A DNA stretch of 31,679 nucleotides from a virus. The position numbers and the translations under genes are program-made. Position 1 is the first letter of the stretch. Each line of letters opens with the position of its first letter. Location: IMG/VR virus record IMGVR_UViG_3300042691_036497, positions 1 through 31,679 of that record, one strand, 5' to 3'. The notes beneath the pieces were generated by a model. It was not told the DNA's origin. It searched no databases and worked only from the letters and a program-made list of their open reading frames with translations. This document shows positions 3,304 through 29,406 of this stretch, one piece after another.

Positions 3304-3314
3304 AAGTCAAAAAG

Positions 3315-3341
3315 GTCAGTCAGGTCACTCAGGTCAGACGG
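3315..3341. repeat. 9-nt tandem repeat array (GTCANNNNG)
   Basis: Three consecutive 9-mers: GTCAGTCAG, GTCACTCAG, GTCAGACGG. On the minus strand the array contains TGA in more than one frame and supplies the stop codons of both overlapping methyltransferase frames (3329-3331 and 3334-3336). It fills the junction to the next gene. The same GTCANNNNG unit recurs near 4548, 5851, 7480, 13272, 28043 and 30887. Confidence 0.8.
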
Positions 3342-4516
3342 CGGAAAAGATGGGCAAAAGCTGCCGCAGCCTGGAGAGCCACCACGCCGTTGCCTCCGCA
3401 CCGAAGCTGGTCGGGGCGGGCTGCGTCCAGTGCCACGGCCACCCCATCAGCCAGCACACAAAGCCCGGATTCAATCGCCGGGGCAAGGTGAGGGGCTCCG
3501 GCGAGGATAGGGGCCCAGGCTCCGAAATCGTCGGGACCAGGGGCAAAGATTCCGCCACGTCCGAAAGGTTCGCGCCTCGGCGTGAGGCCTCCGAGCGGTA
3601 AAAGGTCGTGCCCAGTATTTCCATGCCGCGGCCCGCTTGCGTGTCGGAGGTCCGAGGCGTCGGCCACTGCGCCGCCTGCGCTGGCAGGGGCTTCCCGCCC
3701 GCTCCAAAGGCCATGTTCGGCCCGCCCTTCTCGCCATCGCTCGCCCTCGGCGTGCCCCACTGCGCCGCCTCCGCGCTCAAATGCTTCCCATGCTGGCCGG
3801 CTGCGGCGGTCGGGGTCGTCTTCACCGTGCGGTTCGTGCTCTCGCTGGCCGTGGGGCTCGGCCACTGCCGCGCCAGCCCGTTCAGCGTCGGACGCTCCGC
3901 GCCCTTCGCTCCCCGGTCCCGCTGATAGGAGCCTTGTGCTTCGTTCGCCCGGCAGGTGGACCAGGATGAAGACACGTTCCCGCCGATGGCTTGCGCCCAC
4001 GTCGCTCGCACGGACGAAGAGCGGGTCTTCGATCTCGTAACCCAGAGCCGCCAGCGAGTCGCCAAATCGACGGAACGCCCCGCTCGTGACCCATTGAGGG
4101 ACATTTTCGAGGCAGACCAGGGCGGGCGCACACTCGGAGACGATGCGCAGCGCATGGGGGAGAGGTCCATCCCCCTTCCCATAGCTTCGCTCGTCTCGCA
4201 GGCCTCGCCGCTTCCCGGCGGCGGAGTAGGGCTGGCAGGGCAGCCCGGCGGCAAAGAGGTCACAGTGACCCCACAGAGGGCGGGCGTCCAGATCTCGGAA
4301 GTCGCCACAGAAAACAGGCGCTGGCTCCAGGCTCTGCTCTTCCATCCGGGCCAGGAGCACGGCTGCCGCGTAGGCTTCCCTTTCAGCGAAACCCAAAACC
4401 CGCGGCCAGCGCCCGGTGACGTGCTCAAAAGCGAGCTTGACGGCGAGGGCGAGCATGCCAGTCCCGGAGCAGAGGGAGAGCAGGCCAGGGCGGAGAGTTG
4501 AGGAGGAAGCAGCCAC
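3329..4516 (-). CDS. DNA (cytosine-5) methyltransferase
   Basis: 395 aa from GTG at 4516 (a TTG at 4540 inside a heptamer array gives 403 aa; the only nearby ATG, at 4518, is in another frame). Numbering from the TTG, C5-methyltransferase motifs are in order: motif I SLCSGTGML (22-30), catalytic PCQ loop GLPCQPYSAAGKRRG (99-113, nucleophile C102), ENV (145-147), RRERVFI (186-192) and the C-terminal GGNGVVALQAA (382-392). It transfers a methyl group to cytosine, presumably to protect phage DNA from restriction or mark it. The long stretch between motifs VIII and X is the likely target-recognition region; its sequence (AVADASDLRHASG and similar) is typical of phage enzymes. The same DNA also encodes, in the +1 frame, a different methylase-type C-terminus (see the overlapping entry). 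It follows the wHTH gene by about 50 nt of repeat linker. Confidence 0.88.
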   Translation of the reverse strand: MAASSSTLRPGLLSLCSGTGMLALAVKLAFEHVTGRWPRVLGFAEREAYAAAVLLARMEEQSLEPAPVFCGDFRDLDARPLWGHCDLFAAGLPCQPYSAAGKRRGLRDERSYGKGDGPLPHALRIVSECAPALVCLENVPQWVTSGAFRRFGDSLAALGYEIEDPLFVRASDVGASHRRERVFILVHLPGERSTRLLSAGPGSEGRGASDAERAGAAVAEPHGQREHEPHGEDDPDRRSRPAWEAFERGGGAVGHAEGERWREGRAEHGLWSGREAPASAGGAVADASDLRHASGPRHGNTGHDLLPLGGLTPRREPFGRGGIFAPGPDDFGAWAPILAGAPHLAPAIESGLCVLADGVAVALDAARPDQLRCGGNGVVALQAAAAFAHLFRRLT

Positions 4517-4518
4517 AT
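3334..4518 (-). other. Overlapping +1 frame with a second methylase-type C-terminal half
   Basis: This frame is open for 394 codons. Its N-terminal half is just a shifted reading of the methyltransferase. From about 3900 downward it becomes protein-like: RQWPSPTASESTNR, AAQWGTPRASDGEKGG, AAQWPTPRTSD, then LNPGFVCWLMGWPWHW near the end. Repeated 'W.TP..SD' segments followed by 'LNP.FV.WLMG.P.GW' are the usual C-terminal landmarks of another group of phage cytosine methylases. It stops within 5 nt of the main frame. It could be a relic of an old frameshift, an alternative product made by +1 frameshifting, or a switchable second specificity domain. The start is not defined. Confidence 0.45.
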
Positions 4519-4526
4519 CAGAAAAA

Positions 4527-4556
4527 GTTTCAGGTTTCAAGTTTCAGGTCAGTCAG
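4527..4556. repeat. Heptamer array GTTTCAR plus one GTCAGTCAG unit
   Basis: Units GTTTCAG (4527), GTTTCAA (4534), GTTTCAG (4541), then the 9-mer GTCAGTCAG (4548-4556). It occupies the linker between the wHTH gene and the methyltransferase, and on the minus strand contains the possible TTG start of the methyltransferase. Related heptamers occur at 8580, 9762 and 20111. Confidence 0.8.
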
Positions 4557-4895: not shown

Positions 4896-4930
4896 TTTTC
4901 AGTTTTCAGTTTCCAATTCTCAGTTTTCAG
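4896..4930. repeat. Heptamer array TTTTCAG (5 units)
   Basis: Five contiguous 7-mers: TTTTCAG, TTTTCAG, TTTCCAA, TTCTCAG, TTTTCAG. Read on the minus strand it lies just upstream of the wHTH ATG at 4890, and its fourth unit contains the TGA stop (4920-4922) of the upstream Cys-rich gene. Four units in the same order (TTTTCAG, TTTCCAA, TTCTCAG, TTTTCAG) recur at 6975-7002, so the array itself, not only the unit, is shared between two junctions. Confidence 0.88.
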
Positions 4931-5162
4931 TCCCGCCAAAGGTGTTCTCCGGCATCGGAACCTCCGCCCCTAGGTGGGCGGGCCGCTCCAGCAGGTTCAG
5001 GGTTTGAAAGGTCCCCGCGCCGCTCTGGAGCTGGTAAAGCGCCCCACAGCATTCCGTGCGGAATTGAAGGGCATGGCCCGTCGTCACAAAGTCCGGCCAC
5101 CACTGGCCGCACACGCACTGCACCCCACGGAGGATGCCGCGATGACAAAGGAACTCGCTCAT
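4920..5162 (-). CDS. Small Cys-rich protein, possible zinc binding
   Basis: 80 aa from the ATG at 5162. Five cysteines lie in the first half, in the pattern C-H near residue 6, CVCG near residue 17, and CC near residue 38; a zinc-binding fold is plausible but no family is recognised. The start overlaps the stop of the upstream 44-aa gene as TGATG, a typical coupling arrangement. The stop codon falls inside the TTTTCAG heptamer array. Confidence 0.65.
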   Translation of the reverse strand: MSEFLCHRGILRGVQCVCGQWWPDFVTTGHALQFRTECCGALYQLQSGAGTFQTLNLLERPAHLGAEVPMPENTFGGTEN

Positions 5163-6394: not shown

Positions 6395-6420
6395 CCTTTG
6401 CGGGAAATCTCTCCCACTGA

Positions 6421-6448
6421 GCACTGGGCACTGAGCACTGAGCACTTG
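6421..6448. repeat. Heptamer array GCACTGA (4 units)
   Basis: Units GCACTGG, GCACTGA, GCACTGA, GCACTTG, preceded by a partial CACTGA at 6415. It lies just downstream of the Gam stop on the minus strand, in the linker to the next gene. This unit is unrelated in sequence to the other arrays but has the same 7-nt period. Confidence 0.8.
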
Positions 6449-6454
6449 GGATCT

Positions 6455-6964
6455 TCATGCCTTTGGGCTCCCTTCCATGTCGAGTTCGATGAAGAAGTCC
6501 TCGCTGGTCGTCATCTTCACGCCAGCGGCCACCAGAAAGACTTCGTGATCCTTCCAGTGCTTCTTCATGGCCTCCTTGTCCGGGGCCTCTTTGGTGCGGA
6601 TGAAAAGCTCCTGGAGCTTCTTCGAGGCCTCCTTGAGCTTGGCGAGAACGCCCTTGGCACCGCCGGCCTTCTTGGTGAACTCGATGGCTCCGCCGTTGCT
6701 GCGGTAGCCCAGGACATGGCCTTCGAGCGTGAAGCTCTTGGTCTTGCCTTTGAGCAGGTCCTTCCGGCGGGCATCCAGCCAGTCCCGGATCTGCTCCGCC
6801 AGCTCTTTCTCCTTGGCGGCATGCTTCGTGATCTCCGGCTCATGCCGGTCCTTCACCTTTGCCAGCTCGGCATTCAGCTCGGCGGTCAGGGATTGCTGGA
6901 GCGTCCGCTCCCGGCGCATGCAGGCCAGGGCGGCGGTAACTTGGTCGAGGGATTCGAGTTTCAT
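6455..6964 (-). CDS. gam: Gam-like host-nuclease inhibitor
   Basis: 169 aa. It matches the Mu Gam family, which binds DNA ends and shields linear phage DNA from host exonucleases. Visible landmarks: a long N-terminal coiled-coil (about 1-55, including LNAELAKVKDRHEPEITKHA), the transition IRDWLDARRKDLLKGKTKSF (about 58-77) followed by the GHVLGYR strand, and a C-terminal 'AAGVKMTTSEDFFIEL' ending typical of the family. Length is close to Mu Gam. It sits between the MarR-like gene and small early genes, downstream of the MuB-like ATPase, as expected for a Mu early operon. Confidence 0.88.
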   Translation of the reverse strand: MKLESLDQVTAALACMRRERTLQQSLTAELNAELAKVKDRHEPEITKHAAKEKELAEQIRDWLDARRKDLLKGKTKSFTLEGHVLGYRSNGGAIEFTKKAGGAKGVLAKLKEASKKLQELFIRTKEAPDKEAMKKHWKDHEVFLVAAGVKMTTSEDFFIELDMEGSPKA

Positions 6965-7521: not shown

Positions 7522-8559
7522 TCACGCCGCCAGCCGCAGCGTCTTCGCCCGCGCCCTCAGCTCCAGCTTGGCCTGGTGCGTGAGGCTTTCCGCCGTGGGG
7601 GCTTCCTTGGCCTTCGTGGCGGCCTTGGCGGTGCGGATGATGGTCTCCCGGACGAAGGCCAGGTTGCCGTGGTTGAGCGCCATCTCCGCCAGTTGGCGGG
7701 CCGTGGTGCCCAGGTCCTTGGCAGGCAGGTCCAGCGCCGGGAGGCGACGCTTCAGCAGCAAGGCCACGTCCTCGGCATTCAGCGTGCCCAGCTCGATCCG
7801 AGCCAGCAAACGGTTCCCGGTGAGCTGGGAGAGGTCGTCCCAGTTGTCCCGCTCCAGATCGCGGAAGAGGCGGGGATGACAAAGCATGATGATCTTTACC
7901 GGGCTCTCATTGAGCAGGGTCTTCACCACGCGGAGGCAGCGGACCCCGAAATCATGGACCTCATCCAGGATGAAGATGATGGGCCGCTCATTGAGGACCG
8001 TGGTCAGCAGGTCCAGGCGGGCGGCCTGGCTCCGGCCCGTGGCCTCGCGGCCCAGCGCCCGGAGCATGGCTGTCAGCATCGCGTTCGGGCGATCTCCCCA
8101 CCCGGCGCTGGCCTCGATGGTGAAGACCTGGGGCATGGCCGCCATGGCGTTGTAGGATTTAGCCACGATTTGGCCAGCCGAGGTTTTGCCCGAACCGGTG
8201 AAGCCCTCCACGATGATGAGCTTTGCCTTCGTGCGGCTCAGCTTCAGGCGCACCATTTGCGCCCGAACGGCCTTGGTCGTCGAAAGGTCGTCATAGAGCG
8301 GGTCCTCATCGCTGGCCGCCGCTTCGAGGCCGTCGAGGGCTCCGCGATAGGCCGCATGCAGGGCGGCCAGATCTCCGAGGCTGGCAAAGTCGCCACTTCG
8401 GATGCGGTCAAAGGTCCGGTCTGATTTGAGGGCCGGGATCTGGCGGAGCAGCTCCGCCTTTGTCCAGCCCTCCGCCTCCGCGTGTTCCGCGAGAAGGTGG
8501 GCCGCTTCCTGAAGCTCACGCTCCAGGGCTTCGTTGTTGGTCGTGGGTGTCGTTTGCAT
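7522..8559 (-). CDS. MuB-like AAA+ ATPase (transposition target activator)
   Basis: 345 aa. Residues about 30-60 contain a small helix-turn-helix-like region (GWTKAELLRQIPALKSDRTF), as in the MuB N-terminus. Walker A is EGFTGSGKT (118-126) and Walker B is IIFILDE (194-200) followed by VHD. The likely role is ATP-dependent DNA binding, target capture and activation of the transposase; in Mu, MuB also gives target immunity. Length is near that of MuB (312 aa) and of the Tn7 TnsC-type group. It lies downstream of the transposase in the same operon, separated by three small genes instead of being adjacent. Confidence 0.88.
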   Translation of the reverse strand: MQTTPTTNNEALERELQEAAHLLAEHAEAEGWTKAELLRQIPALKSDRTFDRIRSGDFASLGDLAALHAAYRGALDGLEAAASDEDPLYDDLSTTKAVRAQMVRLKLSRTKAKLIIVEGFTGSGKTSAGQIVAKSYNAMAAMPQVFTIEASAGWGDRPNAMLTAMLRALGREATGRSQAARLDLLTTVLNERPIIFILDEVHDFGVRCLRVVKTLLNESPVKIIMLCHPRLFRDLERDNWDDLSQLTGNRLLARIELGTLNAEDVALLLKRRLPALDLPAKDLGTTARQLAEMALNHGNLAFVRETIIRTAKAATKAKEAPTAESLTHQAKLELRARAKTLRLAA

Positions 8560-9655: not shown

Positions 9656-11620
9656 TCACAAAGCCATCGCCGCGGCCTCCTCCGCCTCGTCGAACTCCTC
9701 GACGAAGACGGCAGGCACCGCCCGGCGGGCAGGCATCGAAAGGGGCTCCGGCTCCGGGCTTGAAACTTGAAACCTGGAACCTGAAACTTGCCCGGAGGGC
9801 ATGACTCGGCCTTCCGAGGGCATCACGCTCCGCTCCGGCGGCGGCTCCGCCGTGTGGATCTCGGGGCGCGGGGCATTCGCCGCCGCAAAGGCATTGCCAA
9901 AACCATCCTGCGCATGGGAGCGGCGACGACCGTCAAAGGCCGTCCCCGCGATGATGGCGCGGAACTCCTGGCGGACCTGCGCAGCGGCGCGGGCCTGCCC
10001 TGGCGCATAGCCACGGGCGGAAAGGTCTTCTTGCGGCGCATCGGCCATGTGATCGGCCACGCCCATTCGTTGGAGGAAGCCCCAGCCATCGCGATTGCGG
10101 GCACTGCGGTCCCGGTTGAAGATCGTGCATCCGGCCCAGGCCTCGCTAGGGTCAAAGGCCACCATGACCTGGTGCCCATCCACGAACTGCGCCCCGGCCA
10201 TGCGACTGGCTCCATGCAGGCGGAAGCGGAACGAAACCGGGTAGTGGTTCACCTTCACCTCGACACAACCCTTGCGGATCGTGGCGGGCACCTTCACCGG
10301 CAGGAAGCGCCAGCGTTCATTCTGCGGGCAGGGGCGTTTGACATGCTGCGCCCACAGCTCCGCCGGGGAGAAGGTCTTGTTGCCAAACGTCTGCCGCTTC
10401 TTCGGGCGCTCGTCGAACAGCCGCATGGCGTTCAGGACGTGGTCCGCGCTTTGCTCGATGGTCCAAAACTTCGCCAGGGCCGCCGCGTCCCGATCACTGC
10501 GGAGCATGGCTCGCGTGGCGGCCTCAAACTCGCCGCGCTCGCGGCCGATGCTCATTGTGCGACCGTCCCCACCGTGGTCCATGAGGCTCTGGAGCAGGTT
10601 GAAGGCTCCCTCGATTTCCTTGCCACGGCTGGAGAACTTGACCGCAATTTTGACCACGGCATCCAGCCCGCCAAAGCGGACGGCATTCCCCTCGTCATCG
10701 AACTCGCCGGGGATGGGTGAACCAAAGATGAAGTTGTTGTCCCACCGACCGCGTTCAATGCGCCAGATGAGCGGCAGGCCATGCTCGTCCACGAGAGCGG
10801 CAAAATGCTTCGCGATGTCCTCGGCGCGGTAGCTGTCCCGGTCCCGGCCAATGTGGCTGGCTCCCAGGAAATGCAGGGAGAAGGCATCCGTCGTGAAAAG
10901 CGCCTGACGTCCCAGCAATTCCTTCTCCGAGGCCGCATCGTAGAACCGGAACGGATCATTGAGGCTCATGTCATCGCTACACCAGATGGCACCCGCGAAC
11001 CACGGCAGGCGCTGGCCGTCCTCGTCGATGATGAAGGCTCCCTTGCGCTCCGTGCCGCCGCGATTTTGCAGCGCCTTCGGACCCCGGAAGGCAGCCTCTT
11101 CGTCCTCGGACACCCGGCAGGCACGTTGGATGCTCTGCGGCCAGGTCACCGGCTTCCGGGCCTCGACGAATTTCCGCCAGTAGGCCTTCAGGGCGGCAGC
11201 CTTCGCGGCATCCAGCTTCGCGTTGCCCTCGACGGAACGGCGGGCCTTCACCGCCGTTTCGTCCAGGACATCACAAGCCAGGCTTGCCCGCAGCGCCGCG
11301 AAGTAGGGCTCCTCATTGCCATCCAGCGCCTCGGCAATCGCTGCCTCGACCGCCAGCGGGATCGAGCCCTTCACCAGCCGCCAGAAGCGGAGGCGGCGCG
11401 TCTCCGCCTCGCTCAGGTCAAAGAGCACCTTCCGGCCCCGTTTGGGGGCCTGGCTCAGATCCGGCAGGAAACCGCTCTTCGACTCCTCCACCTGGCGCTG
11501 CCAGCGGTAAAAGGTCGGAAACGGAATGCCCACCTCCGCACAGGCCCGGCGCGTCGGCATCTCCGCCGAAAGCGCCGCCACCTGGGCGAGGAGCATGGAA
11601 CGATCTGCAAGGGTGAACAT
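9656..11620 (-). CDS. MuA-like DDE transposase
   Basis: 654 aa, similar in length to MuA (663 aa). It catalyses phage integration and replicative transposition. An N-terminal helix-turn-helix is visible (TRRACAEVGIPFPTFYRWQR, about 23-42). The rve-type catalytic core starts at IWCSDDMSLND (first Asp 216/217), followed by a strand FTTDAFSLHFLG, then GLPLIWRIERGRWDNN (281-296), then RGKEIEGAFNLLQ (332-344, Glu 335/337). The expected Asp of the 'DxG' motif after strand 4 is Glu289 here, giving D-E-E; D294 lies nearby. A beta-barrel-like domain follows (about 440-510). The C-terminus is low-complexity and contains GQVSGSRFQVSS, encoded by a heptamer array at 9762-9789. No Shine-Dalgarno precedes the ATG. 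Confidence 0.9.
   Translation of the reverse strand: MFTLADRSMLLAQVAALSAEMPTRRACAEVGIPFPTFYRWQRQVEESKSGFLPDLSQAPKRGRKVLFDLSEAETRRLRFWRLVKGSIPLAVEAAIAEALDGNEEPYFAALRASLACDVLDETAVKARRSVEGNAKLDAAKAAALKAYWRKFVEARKPVTWPQSIQRACRVSEDEEAAFRGPKALQNRGGTERKGAFIIDEDGQRLPWFAGAIWCSDDMSLNDPFRFYDAASEKELLGRQALFTTDAFSLHFLGASHIGRDRDSYRAEDIAKHFAALVDEHGLPLIWRIERGRWDNNFIFGSPIPGEFDDEGNAVRFGGLDAVVKIAVKFSSRGKEIEGAFNLLQSLMDHGGDGRTMSIGRERGEFEAATRAMLRSDRDAAALAKFWTIEQSADHVLNAMRLFDERPKKRQTFGNKTFSPAELWAQHVKRPCPQNERWRFLPVKVPATIRKGCVEVKVNHYPVSFRFRLHGASRMAGAQFVDGHQVMVAFDPSEAWAGCTIFNRDRSARNRDGWGFLQRMGVADHMADAPQEDLSARGYAPGQARAAAQVRQEFRAIIAGTAFDGRRRSHAQDGFGNAFAAANAPRPEIHTAEPPPERSVMPSEGRVMPSGQVSGSRFQVSSPEPEPLSMPARRAVPAVFVEEFDEAEEAAAMAL
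9762..9789. repeat. Heptamer array GAAACYT inside the transposase C-terminus
   Basis: Units GAAACTT, GAAACCT, GGAACCT, GAAACTT; 28 nt read in frame as part of the transposase tail. The unit is the complement of the GTTTCAR heptamer found at intergenic junctions (4527, 8580, 20111). Confidence 0.8.
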
Positions 11621-12260: not shown

Positions 12261-13298
12261 TCAGCTCCACGTGGCCGGTTCATCCGCCGCCGCCAGCGCC
12301 TCGGCCAAAGCCAGGCGAAACTCCGGCGTCATGTCCGCCTTCACGCGGGCGGTCAGCAGGCGCTGGGCCTTGAGCCGCTCCTCGGCGTCCCAGCTCGTGA
12401 AGGCCTTAGAAAGGCGGACGAGCTGGCTCAGGGGAGCGTCGAGGTGGTGGAAGCCCGTCTGGGCCTTCGGCTTGCCACCCGTGGCGTCACCCCCGGCGAT
12501 GCCCGCCAGGATGCCGCCCAGGCCCGCCCCGCCCCAGATGAGGTGTTCATACTTCTCCCGCTTCGCGGCGGCCTCGATGGCCTCCGGGCTGCTCGCCGCA
12601 TGGCCGGGGGCATAAAAGGCCCGGTAAAGGGCCACCGCTTGATCCACCGTGTCAGCCGAAACGCCCAAGCGACGCCCCAAAGTCGATGCGTTCAAAACTC
12701 CGATTGAATCGGAGTTTTTGGAAGGGCGTCCTTCACCTGCCTCGCAAACCTGCGGATGCTGGCACACGCCCAGCCACGCCCGCTGCCCCTTGGTCCAGTG
12801 ACGACGACCGATCACGCTGGCCTCAATGATCTGCATGGCCTCGGCTTCCGAGACCTCAATGAGCGGCACCTTCTGACCTCTGACTTCTGACTTCTGACCT
12901 CTGGCCTCTGCATTGTCATCCACCCACTCCAGCCGGTGCCTGCCATCCACCGCCACCCAGCGGCGGCCTTGGCGGAAGGCCTTGATCGGCTCCACAATAC
13001 CCAGATCATCCAGGCTGCTCCGCAGGGCATCGTGCTCCGCCATCATCTCCACGCCCTGCGCCTTGATCTCCGGCTTCGGGCTCGTGATGAACTTCGCCGC
13101 CACGTCCACCATCATCGGAACGATGGCGAGACGTGGATCAATGGTAATCAGCTCACGGCGCACCAGATGCACCGTCATCGTGCCCTTGCTCGCCCGATGC
13201 TGGGAGGCCTCGTGAACCTGAAAGGGATCGTTAAGGTGCATGTCGTCCGTGCGCCAGATGGCGTCCTTCCGGTCAGTGAGGTCAGTCCGGTCACTCAT
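12261..13298 (-). CDS. ParB-like nuclease-fold DNA-binding protein
   Basis: 345 aa. The central part is ParB/Srx-like: ALRSSLDDLGIVEPIKAF (about 90-107), RRWVAVDGRHRLEWV (about 111-125), and VPLIEVSEAEAMQIIEASV (about 144-162), with a downstream HTH around ASTLGRRLGVSADTVDQAVAL. The role is probably site-specific DNA binding, in regulation, partition or transposition. The N-terminus is odd: MSDRTDLTDRKD is encoded by GTCANNNNG repeats, and AIWRTDDMHLNDPF (13-26) closely matches the transposase active-site segment AIWCSDDMSLNDPF. Two further repeats are embedded in frame: a TTCTGAC array (EARGQKSEVRGQK) and a 23-nt palindrome (KNSDSIGVLN). Its ATG overlaps the upstream stop (ATGA). Confidence 0.78.
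   Translation of the reverse strand: MSDRTDLTDRKDAIWRTDDMHLNDPFQVHEASQHRASKGTMTVHLVRRELITIDPRLAIVPMMVDVAAKFITSPKPEIKAQGVEMMAEHDALRSSLDDLGIVEPIKAFRQGRRWVAVDGRHRLEWVDDNAEARGQKSEVRGQKVPLIEVSEAEAMQIIEASVIGRRHWTKGQRAWLGVCQHPQVCEAGEGRPSKNSDSIGVLNASTLGRRLGVSADTVDQAVALYRAFYAPGHAASSPEAIEAAAKREKYEHLIWGGAGLGGILAGIAGGDATGGKPKAQTGFHHLDAPLSQLVRLSKAFTSWDAEERLKAQRLLTARVKADMTPEFRLALAEALAAADEPATWS
12694..12718. repeat. 23-nt palindrome, copy 1 (inside ParB-like gene)
   Basis: Left arm AAACTCCGATT, single G centre, right arm AATCGGAGTTT, a perfect inverted repeat at 12695-12717 that extends by one A/T pair on each side. It lies within the ParB-like coding region, where it reads in frame. The same sequence occurs at 14096-14118 and, with two changes, at 14638-14660. 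Candidate protein-binding site (parS-like) or mobile palindrome. Confidence 0.8.
12871..12911. repeat. Heptamer array YTCTGAC inside the ParB-like gene
   Basis: Units TTCTGAC, CTCTGAC, TTCTGAC, TTCTGAC, CTCTGGC, and a partial sixth. On the minus strand it reads in frame as Gly-Gln-Lys-Ser-Glu-Val-Arg-type residues, inserted between the RRWVAVDGRHRLEWV and VPLIEVSEAEAM segments of the ParB fold. The same unit family occurs at 19295 and 23889. Confidence 0.8.
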
Positions 13299-14717: not shown

Positions 14718-15872
14718 ATGCCACAACCGGCCCCCCGCAAGCTGCCCACTTCCCTCTCCCTCCTCTGCCTCAGCGCCGGGGCGGTGGATCGTGCCAGTGG
14801 CGAGCTCCCGGAGCGGCTCCTCATTCTCCCCTGGGGCCAGCATGATCTGGGCAAGCGCGGCACCGCGCTTTGTAATGACTTCACCGTCGCTCTCTTTGCG
14901 GACGCGATGAAGGCCCTGAAGCTCAATGGCCCCGTGGCCCTCGACTTCAACCACAACAGCCTCCCTGGCCATGCCGCCTACCTGGCCGAAAAGGAACCCC
15001 GCCGGAAGGCCGCCTGGGGCACGCCCCTCGTCGTCCCTGGCGAGGGCATCTATTTGACCGCCCTCACCTGGACCCCCGAAGGCCGGGACGCCTTCCTCGG
15101 CGGCCACTTCCAGGACATTAGCCCCGTCATCTTCCGGGACAAGGCAAACCACGTCATCGCCATCCATTCGGCGGCTCTCTGCGATCACGGCGAGGTCGAT
15201 GGCCTCACCATCGAGGCCGCCACCGCCCCGCCCGAACTCCAGTCCGCCTTCGCCGCCCTCTCCAGTCTCCCCGTCTCCCCGTCTCAAAGTCTCCCAGTCT
15301 CAAAGTCTCCCAGTCTCCCTGTCTCCCCGTCTCCCACCACCCCACCCATGAAACCCGAAATCCTCGCGGCCCTGGCCGCTCTCCTCAAAGGCATGGACAT
15401 CGAACTGGCCGCCGAGCCGGACGATACCATGCTCGCCGATGCCCTCACCGCTGCCGCTGGCAAGCTGGACGACATGAAGGCCAAGCTCACCGCCGCCGCC
15501 GCCCCTCCTGAAAAGAAGGAAGAGGTCAAGCCGGATGCCCTCTCCGCCCAGATCACTGATCTGCAAACTCAGCTCGCCACGATCCGCGCCGAGAAAGACC
15601 AGGCTCGCCGCGATGCCCTCATGGCCGAGGCCATCCGCGATGGCAAGATCATCCCCCTCAGCTCCGACCTCTGGAACAAGGCCCCCGTCGATGTCTGTGA
15701 AGGCCTCGTCAAAGCCGCCAAGGCCGGCGAGGTGCCCCTCAAGAGCAAGATGCCCGAAGGCGAGCAAACCGAGGCCAAGCCCCTCGCCCTCTCCGCCGAG
15801 GTGATGAGCAACATGGGCCTCACTGCCGAAGACCTCGCCAAATACGGCCCCAAGGACGCCTCCGCCGCCTGA
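14718..15872 (+). CDS. Mu gpI-like prohead protease with fused scaffold
   Basis: 384 aa. Residues 1-180 resemble the Mu gpI protease: VALDFNHNSLPG (about 74-85), a segment GTPLVVPGEGIYLTALTWTP (about 99-118), then FQDISPVIF, and ending with AIHSAALCDHGEVDGLTIEA. This enzyme cleaves scaffold and head proteins during capsid maturation. Residues about 183-211 are a Ser/Pro linker encoded by nine GTCTCCNN octamers (15265-15336); because 3 x 8 nt is 8 codons it reads as an 8-residue period (SLPVSPSQ, SLPVSKSP, SLPVSPSP). The remainder is a helical, charged scaffold domain with its own internal ATG, as in Mu I/Z. No Shine-Dalgarno precedes the ATG. Confidence 0.85.
   Translation: MPQPAPRKLPTSLSLLCLSAGAVDRASGELPERLLILPWGQHDLGKRGTALCNDFTVALFADAMKALKLNGPVALDFNHNSLPGHAAYLAEKEPRRKAAWGTPLVVPGEGIYLTALTWTPEGRDAFLGGHFQDISPVIFRDKANHVIAIHSAALCDHGEVDGLTIEAATAPPELQSAFAALSSLPVSPSQSLPVSKSPSLPVSPSPTTPPMKPEILAALAALLKGMDIELAAEPDDTMLADALTAAAGKLDDMKAKLTAAAAPPEKKEEVKPDALSAQITDLQTQLATIRAEKDQARRDALMAEAIRDGKIIPLSSDLWNKAPVDVCEGLVKAAKAGEVPLKSKMPEGEQTEAKPLALSAEVMSNMGLTAEDLAKYGPKDASAA
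15265..15336. repeat. Octamer array GTCTCCNN, 9 units, inside protease/scaffold gene
   Basis: Nine contiguous 8-mers (last two bases CC, AA, CA, AA, CA, CT, CC, CA and so on). It reads in frame through the protease-scaffold linker and ends 11 nt before the internal scaffold ATG at 15348, the same position relative to a start codon as in the intergenic copies. Confidence 0.9.
15348..15872 (+). CDS. Nested scaffold protein (Mu Z-like) from internal start
   Basis: 174 aa starting MKPEILAALAALLKGMDIEL, same frame and stop as the protease. Composition is helical and charged with a coiled-coil-like middle (LSAQITDLQTQLATIRAEKD) and a short C-terminal capsid-binding-like helix. In Mu the scaffold Z is made from an internal start in gene I. 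Here the internal ATG is preceded by an octamer array just like separate genes in this window, which supports independent translation. Confidence 0.65.
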   Translation: MKPEILAALAALLKGMDIELAAEPDDTMLADALTAAAGKLDDMKAKLTAAAAPPEKKEEVKPDALSAQITDLQTQLATIRAEKDQARRDALMAEAIRDGKIIPLSSDLWNKAPVDVCEGLVKAAKAGEVPLKSKMPEGEQTEAKPLALSAEVMSNMGLTAEDLAKYGPKDASAA

Positions 15873-19184: not shown

Positions 19185-20077
19185 AAACGCTCCTTTTCCT
19201 CCTCGCTTCGCTCGTCGCACAGCCGCAGAGCCTCAGAGCTTCAGAGCCTCAAAGCCTCAGAGCTTCAGATCCGCAGAGCCGCAGAGTCTCTGTCCTCTGC
19301 CCCCTGACATCTGACCTCTGCCCTCTGACCTCTGCTCTCTGCCCTCTGACCTCTGCCATGGACTCCGCCACCATTCTCCAGGCCGTGGAGGACTACCTCC
19401 AGCCCCTCCTCGCCGCTGAAAAAGGCCTCCTCACCGTGGCCGAGACCGAGGAGGACGCCATCGAACTCCTCGCCAATGGCCCCGAGAAATGGCGCGTCAT
19501 CCTCACCATGGACGGAGACGAATCCGCCGAGGAAAACAACCCCGCCGGTCTCGTCAAAGGCACCCTCGTCGCCTGGGTGCAAGCTCCCAAAGGCATGGAG
19601 GCCAAGCCAGGCAAAGGCATCCACCGCAGCGGCACCAACGGCAGCCCCAGCTTCATGACCCGCCTCCACTGGGTCATTCGCAAGCTCCGCCTCATGCAGC
19701 TCGTCCACGTCGAGGTGGCCTGCCAGGGCCTCGAATACAAAGGCTGGAACTGGCTCAAATTTGAAGACACCGCCGCCTTCCGCACCGCCCGCGCCCGCTT
19801 CGAGGTCCTCTTCGCCCACGACGATCCCGCCACCGATCCCGATGGCACCGACCCCATCGTCCTCCCCTCCGCCTTCCGCATCACCGGGGCCGCTGCCGAG
19901 TTCTACACCATCAGCCTCAGCGGCACCGCCCACGGCCGCGTCCCCCGCTTCGAGCCTGGCCCCGATGACCCCACCGGCACCGCCACCGGCTACGCCCTCA
20001 CCTCCGCCCAGGCCGAGTTCTACACCGTCGCCTTCGACGGCCAGCCCCACGGCCGCATCCCCCGCTTCGAGGCCTAA
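19181..20077 (+). CDS. Mu gp37-like tail completion protein with repeat-encoded leader
   Basis: 298 aa from the ATG overlapping the gp36-like stop; a shorter form would start at 19358 (239 aa, MDSATILQAVEDYLQPLLAA). The core (about 60-210) fits a gp37/minor tail type protein by position and length. The first 14 residues (MKTLLFLLASLVAQ) look like a signal peptide; residues 15-58 are encoded by an octamer array then a heptamer array. In the heptamer array the in-frame units (1st, 4th, 7th) all read TGC, never TGA, although most other units are TGA, which hints that the long frame is kept open. The C-terminus carries a duplicated segment: AEFYTISLSGTAHGRVPRFE and AEFYTVAFDGQPHGRIPRFE. Confidence 0.62.
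   Translation: MKTLLFLLASLVAQPQSLRASEPQSLRASDPQSRRVSVLCPLTSDLCPLTSALCPLTSAMDSATILQAVEDYLQPLLAAEKGLLTVAETEEDAIELLANGPEKWRVILTMDGDESAEENNPAGLVKGTLVAWVQAPKGMEAKPGKGIHRSGTNGSPSFMTRLHWVIRKLRLMQLVHVEVACQGLEYKGWNWLKFEDTAAFRTARARFEVLFAHDDPATDPDGTDPIVLPSAFRITGAAAEFYTISLSGTAHGRVPRFEPGPDDPTGTATGYALTSAQAEFYTVAFDGQPHGRIPRFEA
19218..19357. repeat. Octamer array AGAGCCTC followed by heptamer array CCTCTGM
   Basis: About eight 8-mers (AGAGCCTC, AGAGCTTC, AAAGCCTC, AGATCCGC and similar, roughly 19218-19286), then about nine 7-mers (CCTCTGC/CCTCTGA type, 19295-19357). The second array ends exactly at the alternative ATG (19358). Two unrelated unit families of different period are joined in one linker. Confidence 0.85.
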
Positions 20078-23834: not shown

Positions 23835-23890
23835 CCACCCACCGCCTCGTGACCGCAGAGCCTCAGCGCCGCAGAGGTCAGAGCCTCTGA
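23555..23890 (+). other. -1 frame extension of the tail chaperone
   Basis: The -1 frame is open from 23555 (after a TGA at 23552) to 23890. From about 23615 it reads WVLAYVETLASEYQLPLASI, FRLPFAAGLALLEARACRL, LSYIDRAIVSARNATRRR, clearly protein-like. The window for the shift is 23555 to about 23620; a run of five G at 23576-23580 (codons GCG GGG GAG) is the best slippage candidate, though not a classic X-XXY-YYZ heptamer. Product would be about 290 aa. An authentic frameshift mutation or sequencing error would look the same. It stops in the first unit region of the next heptamer array. Confidence 0.6.
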
Positions 23891-23937
23891 CCTCTGACTT
23901 CTGACCTCTGACTTCTGACTTCTGACCTCTGACCTCC
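23889..23937. repeat. Heptamer array GACYTCT, 7 units
   Basis: GACCTCT, GACTTCT, GACCTCT, GACTTCT, GACTTCT, GACCTCT, GACCTCC, ending exactly at the tape measure ATG (23938). TGA occurs once per 7 nt, so the array closes all three frames; it supplies the stop of the -1 chaperone frame at 23888-23890. Confidence 0.92.
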
Positions 23938-25518
23938 ATGGCCAACGACCTCCGCTACTCCCTCGGCCTCGACGGCTCCAAATTCGACGGAGCTGTCTCG
24001 AAGTCCCTGGCGGGCATCCAGGGCCTCGGCGGAGCCCTTGCCGCGCTTGGCGCCACGGGGGCCTTTCTCTCGCTTCTCAAGGAGGGATTCGAGTTCAATA
24101 AAATGATGGGGGATGCGGAGAGCGGCATCGCCAACGTCCTCGCCAAATACAAAGGCCTCAATGCGGAAGCGGCCAAAGGGGAAGCAGCCAAGGCCATGGA
24201 CCAAATCCGGGAGCTGGAACCTAAAGCTGCCGGCACGATGGAAGACCTTGTCCAGGGATTCACCGCCACACTGGCGGCCTCTCAAGCCGCGGGGCTCTCG
24301 GTGGAGCAAAACATCGACCTCGTCGGGAAATTCGCCAATGCGCTCGCCAACACAGGCACCCCGGCAGACCAACTCGCCCAGGAAATGCGGTCGATTATCA
24401 CCGCGAACATTGGCGCGGATTCCTCACTGGCCCGCACGCTCAATTTGACCAATGAGATGGTAACGACCGCCCGTGATGCCGGAGAGCTTTACCCCTTCCT
24501 TGTGGGCATCATCGGCCAGCTCGGCGAGGCGGGAGACACCGCCACCGTTGCCTTCACCAGCCTGCTAAGCGCCATCAAGGCCGCCGCTGGGGCTCTGGCC
24601 AAAGGCCTTTTCGATCAAGCCGTCGAAGGCTCCAAAAACCTGACCGAGGCCATCAAGGAAAACCAGTCCTCGTTTGAGGCCATGGGCCAGTCCCTCGCTA
24701 CGATCACCACCGGAGCTCTCACCCTGTTTGCAGGCGTCAAAAGTGTCATGGAAGGGCTTGGTGCCACCGCCGCTGTCATTGACGATGTTTTCCGCAATGG
24801 GACCTCCTGGAGTGATGCCTGGGCCAATGCCCAAAAGGTCCTCCAAGCCGAAATCGACAAGACCGCCGAAAAAGCAGGTAACGCCAACAAGCAACTTCCC
24901 GGACCCAATGGTCCCGAGGCGGCCCCCACCGGCAAAAGCGGCTCCGGCGGCGGGGGCAAGACCGCCCAGCAAATGCAGCAGGCACGCGAGCTGCTCCTCA
25001 TGGAGGTGGCCGCTGCCGATGCCGCCGCCCGAGGGCAGGACAAAAAAGCCGCCGCCCTCCGCCGTGAGCTGGACATCCGCCGGGACATGCAGCGCATCAT
25101 CGAGCAGACCGGAGCCTCCGAAGAGCAGGCCCGCAAGCTGGCCGAGCGCCTCAACCCCGAAGTCTCCACCCGCGCCGATGGCCGCCGGAAGATCAAGGGC
25201 GTCCAATCCTCCCAGTTCATGGGCAGCGCCGGGGGCGGTGGTCTCGACCAGTTCCACAAAATGCAGGAAAAGCGGGAGGTCACCACCGCCGAAATGGAAG
25301 CCACCCGCAAAGCCCGCGGCGGCGGCCGTGGCCTGCCCGTGGGCCAAAGCACCGGCTTTGTCCCTGCCTTCCCCGCCTTCCCCCAGCCCCAAAAACAAGC
25401 CGCCGCCGTCCTCTCCCAGCCCGCCACCGCCACCGCCAAAGACAGCGCCGCCGGCGGCAATGCCCTCACCTTCCTCAAATCCATCGACGAGTCCCTCAAG
25501 TCCCTCAAAGCCGCCTAG
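23938..25518 (+). CDS. Tail tape measure protein
   Basis: 526 aa. N-terminus LGLDGSKFDGAVSKSLAGIQ is typical of tape measures. A hydrophobic helix GLGGALAALGATGAFLSLLK (about 30-49) and a second around ITTGALTLFAGVKSVMEGLG (about 257-276) are visible; the rest is Ala/Glu/Lys-rich helix. A Gly-rich break (KSGSGGGGK) is near residue 337, followed by helical then Pro-rich C-terminal parts. By the usual 1.5 A per residue this would set a short tail of about 80 nm (estimate). The TAG stop is formed with the first octamer of the following array. Confidence 0.82.
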   Translation: MANDLRYSLGLDGSKFDGAVSKSLAGIQGLGGALAALGATGAFLSLLKEGFEFNKMMGDAESGIANVLAKYKGLNAEAAKGEAAKAMDQIRELEPKAAGTMEDLVQGFTATLAASQAAGLSVEQNIDLVGKFANALANTGTPADQLAQEMRSIITANIGADSSLARTLNLTNEMVTTARDAGELYPFLVGIIGQLGEAGDTATVAFTSLLSAIKAAAGALAKGLFDQAVEGSKNLTEAIKENQSSFEAMGQSLATITTGALTLFAGVKSVMEGLGATAAVIDDVFRNGTSWSDAWANAQKVLQAEIDKTAEKAGNANKQLPGPNGPEAAPTGKSGSGGGGKTAQQMQQARELLLMEVAAADAAARGQDKKAAALRRELDIRRDMQRIIEQTGASEEQARKLAERLNPEVSTRADGRRKIKGVQSSQFMGSAGGGGLDQFHKMQEKREVTTAEMEATRKARGGGRGLPVGQSTGFVPAFPAFPQPQKQAAAVLSQPATATAKDSAAGGNALTFLKSIDESLKSLKAA

Positions 25519-25604
25519 TCTCCCCGTCTCCCCGTCTCCCCGTCTCCTAGTCTCCCCGTCTCCTAGTCTCCCCGTCTCCCCGTCTCCCCGTCTCCAAGTC
25601 CCCC
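25518..25604. repeat. Octamer array GTCTCCNN, 10 units
   Basis: Ten contiguous 8-mers (endings CC, CC, CC, TA, CC, TA, CC, CC, CC, AA) then GTCCCCC, abutting the ATG at 25605. The longest array in the window. Two CCTAGTC units contain in-array TAG codons. Confidence 0.95.
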
Positions 25605-28553: not shown

Positions 28554-28561
28554 GCCTCCCC

Positions 28562-28617
28562 GTCTCCCCGTCTCCCCGTCTCCCCGTCTCCCAGTCTCCC
28601 CCTCTCCCAGTCTCTCC
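28562..28617. repeat. Octamer array GTCTCCNN, 7 units
   Basis: Three GTCTCCCC, then GTCTCCCA, GTCTCCCC, CTCTCCCA, GTCTCTCC, ending 3 nt before the ATG at 28621. Confidence 0.92.
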
Positions 28618-28620
28618 GCC

Positions 28621-29131: not shown

Positions 29132-29406
29132 CGCCCCTTTGTGGCGCGGTCGAGGGATGCCTGAAGCCGCAAGGCCCAGGCGGGTTTCGTAGTGGTTCCC
29201 CGAATGCCATCCCTTCACCGCCCCGCAGCCCGCCAGATCCGTGATTCGTCCCACGATCTGGCAGCGGCGGGAGGCCTGAAGCCGCAAGGCCCAGGGTCCG
29301 GGTTTTCCTGCTTTCCCCGGTCGCTCACCTCCCGCCGCTCTCTTTCTCCCTGTCTCCAAGTCTCCCCGTCTCCAAGTCTCCCCGTCTCAAAGTCCCCTCT
29401 TCTCCC
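29132..29406. other. 275-nt structured intergenic region
   Basis: No gene is seen. It contains an exact 22-nt direct repeat (29159-29180 and 29274-29295, core CTGAAGCCGCAAGGCCCAGG), an inverted repeat GCCAGATC/GATCTGGC (29232-29239 and 29255-29262), and a perfect 12-bp inverted repeat AGCGGCGGGAGG/CCTCCCGCCGCT (29263-29274 and 29328-29339) enclosing 53 nt. AGGGATG/CATCCCT also pair (29152-29158, 29208-29214). An octamer array GTCTCCNN (29352-29391) follows, ending before the ATG at 29407. A structured RNA or a compound mobile repeat are both possible. Confidence 0.6.

Follow-up and report, generated by a model that had tools for sequence, protein, structure and literature searches.

The methyltransferase gene on the minus strand of the 31.7-kb IMG/VR virus record studied here (the window, i.e., the whole stretch of 31,679 nucleotides that was analyzed) very probably encodes a two-polypeptide cytosine-5 (C5) DNA methyltransferase, the subunits of which are read from two frames of the same DNA. 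Frame A would give alpha, a SAM-binding and catalytic domain with motifs I-VIII and X in which a disordered linker replaces the usual target-recognition domain. Frame B, located at +1 to A, would give beta, which is proposed to start at its own ATG 2 nt upstream of the alpha GTG, to end 5 nt before alpha, and to supply an array of recognition modules together with motif IX. Complex formation, activity, and specificity of alpha and beta are predicted from the sequence: alpha would bind beta, and the two together would methylate phage DNA at module-dependent sites, probably for the evasion of host restriction.

Frame A has its stop ending at 3329 on the minus strand. A mechanical TTG start gives an open frame of 4540-3329, and the conserved start, taken from a comparison of 99 genes, is the GTG at 4516, which makes alpha a catalytic subunit of 395 aa (3329..4516, minus strand). 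Frame B is open on the same strand from the ATG at 4518 to a stop at 3334 (3334..4518), giving a proposed target-recognition subunit of 394 aa, and the stop positions of the two frames lie 5 nt apart. An earlier note on this DNA had described two such frames, and they were present as described; its landmarks were likewise located as claimed, 'QWPTPRTSD' and LNPGFVCWLMGWP in frame B and 'GGNGVVALQAA' in frame A. It had restricted the second frame to the C-terminal half of the gene, which was not correct, since B is an ATG-initiated frame over the whole gene. Its statement that A contained all C5 motifs held for I-VIII and X, but A lacks the target-recognition region and has no canonical motif IX.

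The N-terminal half of alpha was recognized as a C5 methyltransferase by Pfam (PF00145, E 2.8e-22, residues 21-197), the match covering profile positions 4-163 of 324. PCQ and ENV are present in the catalytic core and motif X at the C terminus, as expected of a member of this family. The match of alpha to M.HaeIII and M.HhaI involved the core only and reached residue 174; likeness to known C5 enzymes stops near residue 174-197 and resumes only at motif X. The predicted structure contained a confident C5 catalytic domain (residues 5-200, 3917..4504; pLDDT mostly >85; PCQ cysteine codon at 4237-4235; G-PCQ and NV columns invariant) as well as motif X (GGNGVVALQAAAAFAHLF, 3344..3397; pLDDT about 90-95), which was also seen at the C termini of phrog_29583 and phrog_1008. 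Residues 207-316 (3569..3898), which lie over the modules of beta, were predicted to be disordered (pLDDT 33-45), being stop-free but weakly constrained. A recognition domain and motif IX were absent from the alpha chain; the modules and LNPxFVxWLMG sit in beta instead.

Beta of the window carries three tandem modules starting with W.TP and a motif-IX-like segment, i.e., module 1 (WPSPTASESTNRTVKTTPTAAAGQHGKHLSAEAAQ, 3760..3864), module 2 (WGTPRASDGEKGGPNMAFGAGGKPLPAQAAQ, 3667..3759), module 3 with a linker (WPTPRTSDTQAGRG..., 3475..3666), and LNPGFVCWLMGWPWHWT (3424..3474), all on the minus strand. The columns of the last segment are nearly invariant, and its assignment to motif IX is based on resemblance and on Streptomyces loci and actinophages, where it precedes motif X within a single frame. 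In the module survey (808 modules in 212 genes), beta comprised 1-7 modules with a median of 36 residues followed by LNPxFVxWLMGxP, and recurrent module types were found in different slots; the clustering was single-linkage and its largest cluster lumps several types. For module 2 (WGTPRASDGEKGGPNMAFGAGGKPLP), the mean identity to 46 other copies was 86% in B vs. 43% in A, with the differences falling at the wobble position of B. Each W.TP module is a putative target-recognition unit. Searches of beta against Pfam, NCBIfam, PADLOC, PDB sequences, and PDB folds gave no match; no confident fold was predicted for it (pLDDT 63), nor was a structural match obtained.

When the two C-terminal halves were searched separately, as the earlier note had suggested, the A-half matched phrog_29583 (E 1e-15) and the B-half matched phrog_27243 (E 2e-13), phrog_1008 (E 2.4e-10), and phrog_31772. 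The PHROG profiles were used for the A-half after tblastn of it against phages had given no match. Many homologues were found for the +1 half, the lack of which would have spoken against the proposal. These separate homologues of each half, together with the very strong family-wide tests given below, bear out the view that the second frame is more than a product of chance.

The connection of the modules with the methyltransferase is seen in a series of actinophages. A single frame of Akhila encodes the catalytic domain, the modules, and motifs IX and X. In Ovechkin, the catalytic domain of which is nearly the same as that of Akhila, and in Upyo and Chubster, the modules, IX, and X form a separate gene in the +1 frame. 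In Darolandstone, MidnightRain, and Streptomyces genomes, A holds the catalytic domain, IX, and X, and the modules are alone in +1, while in the window and SEN5, X is in A and the IX-like segment is in B. Because they are joined in this series, the modules belong to the C5 methyltransferase, either in cis or in trans.

Relatives were obtained by scanning with B (37 viral loci), with the corresponding frame of Salmonella phage SEN5 (80 loci), and with an alignment of full-length B (80 viral and 80 GTDB genome loci). B was exactly +1 to the catalytic frame in 119/120 and 155/157 classifiable loci, i.e., in 274 of the 277 fetched relatives. With the offset kept to this extent, a chance frameshift in this contig is ruled out, and the simple past frameshift that the earlier note had offered as one explanation is excluded. 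In two of the off-pattern loci (L268 and L089), indels in or near G-rich stretches inside the overlap displace the frames, which could be caused by either sequencing error or slippage; the third is L259. Some contigs were fetched twice, and 212 genes (99 window-type and 113 other) were left after near-duplicates had been removed. In the genome collection, full-length B was matched best by a locus in a Verrucomicrobia MAG (L205).

The same two-frame arrangement is present in hundreds of phages and prophages, where the second protein is usually unannotated. Annotators of related phages variously picked A, B, or both; for example, Xanthomonas phage PhiXhv-28 has two overlapping CDS in GenBank, both named DNA methyltransferase. 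The GenBank gene of Alfacinha3, Ssp-JY39, and Tunturi_1 (L041, L042, and L044) is frame B, so that the catalytic frame is missing from these records, and in a prophage of E. coli Ec1117 (L285) the SEN5-type gene is marked by RefSeq as two incomplete pseudogene pieces.

Sequence comparisons indicate, mainly at the family level, that both frames are selected as protein and are probably translated, because the wobble position switches along the gene, stops are avoided in both frames, and the B start is conserved. For the SEN5-type genes, 38 independent close pairs were compared, and the differences at positions 1/2/3 of the A codons numbered 525/383/1188 for the catalytic half, 1124/532/580 for the overlap, where A position 1 is the wobble of B, and 51/46/93 after the stop of B. 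Along the SEN5-type gene, the switch lay ~30 nt beyond the motif VIII region, and the constraint was mixed at either edge of the overlap. The same switch was obtained in 66 window-type pairs, in which each locus was used at most twice and which are therefore not fully independent, together with a B-type pattern over the first ~13 codons. Ordinary third-position variation in A, the other finding that the earlier note had named as contrary to its proposal, was not seen in the overlap.

Stop avoidance was evaluated in both directions. An A stop arises wherever the wobble of B is T before AA, AG, or GA; A-frame stop sites in the overlap numbered 22/2270 vs. 576/2229 for control codons. Compared with expectations from shuffling of the synonymous codons of B, A was open across the overlap in 86/99 window-type genes (2.7 expected) and 110/113 other genes (8.1 expected), in total 196/212 vs. 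10.8, with 13/99 window-type genes carrying an A stop within the tested stretch. The third frame had about the expected number of stops in the overlap in the shuffle test. Conversely, 98/99 window-type genes had B open from its start over the whole catalytic half vs. 11.3 expected, with 1 stop vs. 203.8. The two-frame pattern also holds near 50-53% GC (L110, L112, and L118). The true dual coding proposed in the earlier note is supported by these results, B being better conserved in the overlap and A being kept stop-free there.

The window gene has no close relative, and direct support at the level of the window comes from module 2 and the start. Taken alone, its B frame is open over the full length more than expected from synonymous shuffling of A (p = 0.0066), and the openness of A in the overlap is not unusual (p = 0.12). 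Whole-gene comparisons with L138 and L205, which are about half identical to the window gene in A, showed no B-wobble pattern in the overlap, presumably because of differing modules and saturated sites.

In the 99 non-redundant window-type genes, B starts with the motif M(T)W[LI]YxP, usually 2 nt (ATGTGGCT) or 5 nt (ATGACATGGCT) before the GTG or ATG of A. These loci were retrieved by the C-terminal motif and not by openness of the N-terminal half, although the confirming tblastn used the whole of B. The ATG/GTG pairing of the window is shared by 51/99 of the genes, and most others have ATG/GTG/TTG plus an ATG 5 nt on. In the window, the overlapping start codons form ATGTG (4514..4518, minus strand), from which beta begins as MWLLPP (motif MW(L)..P) at ATG 4518 and alpha at GTG 4516. 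The ATG that the earlier note had assigned to the second frame is therefore rightly placed there, beside the alpha GTG, and is a conserved B start in the subfamily of the window. No Shine-Dalgarno-like sequence was evident upstream of 4518. Beta is shorter in the SEN5-type genes than in the window-type genes and no universal start was found there, the candidates at -68 and -38 not occurring in all of them. Around the A-frame GYA codons of SEN5-type loci L045-L124, the B-frame codon 38 nt before the motif VIII anchor is either ATG or ACG, in many cases preceded by an AAGGA-like sequence, and another 30 nt upstream there is a recurrent xTG codon.

Programmed ribosomal frameshifting could also join the two frames. 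Translation would start in A, shift by +1 near residue 200 into B, and perhaps return for motif X, giving a fused enzyme beside unshifted A. The constant +1 offset, the existence of a fused single-frame form in Akhila, and the SEN5-type genes without a universal beta start agree with such a process. However, the window-type B begins at a conserved start of its own, from which it is open and under selection, which a shift would not require, and the second frame of these genes is accordingly not one entered by a shift only. Moreover, the avoidance of A stops through the overlap is unneeded in a shift-and-return model, and L122 has a B-frame stop just upstream of an ATG in the SEN5-type region. 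Frameshifting is therefore quite improbable. Separate starts are preferred because of the conserved start of B itself, the selection on B from that start, the open state of A, and the renewed selection on A after the end of B. The +1 shift suggested in the earlier note, by which the target-recognition part would be swapped, is unneeded with separate starts.

The absence of any Pfam or PDB relative or biochemical record found for beta would also fit a separate protein of other function, such as a regulator or an anti-restriction or DNA-binding protein, that merely shares the methyltransferase DNA. This is again very unlikely, as Akhila has the modules within a C5 methyltransferase encoded in one frame, Upyo, Chubster, and Ovechkin have them next to IX and X, and it is exactly the recognition region that alpha is without. 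On the other hand, B could be what is left of an ancient frameshift, or it could result from high GC content and the conservation of A, considering that high GC (median 0.65 in the window-type genes) lengthens open frames. This explanation is hardly tenable for the window and is already refuted at the family level, since the substitutions in the overlap fall at the wobble of B, ~204 B stops were predicted by the shuffles and 1 was observed, the third frame is full of stops, and the pattern also appears at moderate GC content.

The evidence is about evenly balanced on the wider proposal that a catalytic subunit and an exchangeable array of recognition modules, encoded by the same 1.2 kb in two complete frames that start together, constitute a widespread phage class. 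Co-starting frames would make catalysis and specificity inseparable by recombination and would leave the modules freely exchangeable, because alpha would need only an open linker there. If alpha and beta are indeed the two subunits of one enzyme, many phage and prophage records of a 'DNA cytosine methyltransferase' are without the recognition subunit, because it is encoded in the other frame. The arrangement would also explain the site choice of these orphan enzymes and provide a natural modular set of recognition units. To our knowledge, few conserved same-strand gene overlaps in prokaryotic viruses would be as long as this one.

Proteins similar to MuA (9656-11620), MuB (7522-8559), and Gam (6455-6964) are encoded in a row in the window, which identifies the virus as a Mu-like transposable phage, and its host is probably a member of Verrucomicrobia. 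Many tandem repeats of short units (7 or 8 nt; CTCTGAC, GTCTCCCC, and others) were observed at 3313-3337, 4896-4931, 6415-6446, 12870-12910, 15262-15336, 19221-19357, 23884-23936, 25517-25604, 28556-28618, and 29345-29405, several of them between genes. The spacers flanking the methyltransferase gene on both sides contain related CTGACCTGA copies (6 matches vs. 2.2 expected).

The near-complete two-frame coding over 1.2 kb with paired starts, the shuffled module arrays, and their spread through hundreds of phages and prophages are new; no paper describing this overlap was found in a literature search limited to open-licence papers. Among known systems, M.EcoHK31I has a small chain that is also encoded in an overlapping frame. 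In this enzyme (recognition sequence YGGCCR), the large chain has motifs I-VIII and X and the small chain has motif IX, both being required (PMC3404938). Compared by description, the motifs of alpha and beta are split over two chains in the same way, the IX-like segment being separated from I-VIII and X, and the proposed enzyme would work like M.EcoHK31I. However, the predicted recognition domain of M.EcoHK31I is in the large chain (PMC3404938), whereas in the window the recognition modules are in beta. Unlike M.EcoHK31I, moreover, the window beta extends over the whole of the alpha gene from a paired start, and a restriction enzyme gene was not identified next to it. When plasmid genes resembling M.EcoHK31I were searched for, those retrieved were of the SEN5 type, and no restriction gene was listed under the match.

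M.AquI and artificially split C5 enzymes are divided in the variable region, and their chains reassemble (PMC3404938). This type of split is closest to the relatives in Upyo, Chubster, and Ovechkin; its chains come from consecutive gene segments with motif X in the second chain, whereas X of the window is in alpha. The multispecific phage C5 methyltransferases SPR, phi3T, and H2 have tandem target-recognition domains (PMC8936443). Their likeness to the window, again by description, lies in phage-encoded tandem units, but they are one polypeptide in one frame, and here the tandem units are the 1-7 W.TP modules per gene with their putative recognition role. Genes of this kind are usually explained as shielding mobile DNA from restriction (PMC8936443). 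In the ShiLan domain, an out-of-frame HNH insertion in a phage methylase gives a second protein in another frame (PMC11855218); that domain is a homing endonuclease insertion, whereas no match of this kind was obtained for beta, which extends over the whole gene. Finally, phrog_29583 is listed as a family unrelated to phrog_1008 and phrog_27243, whereas here they are two frames of one DNA stretch.
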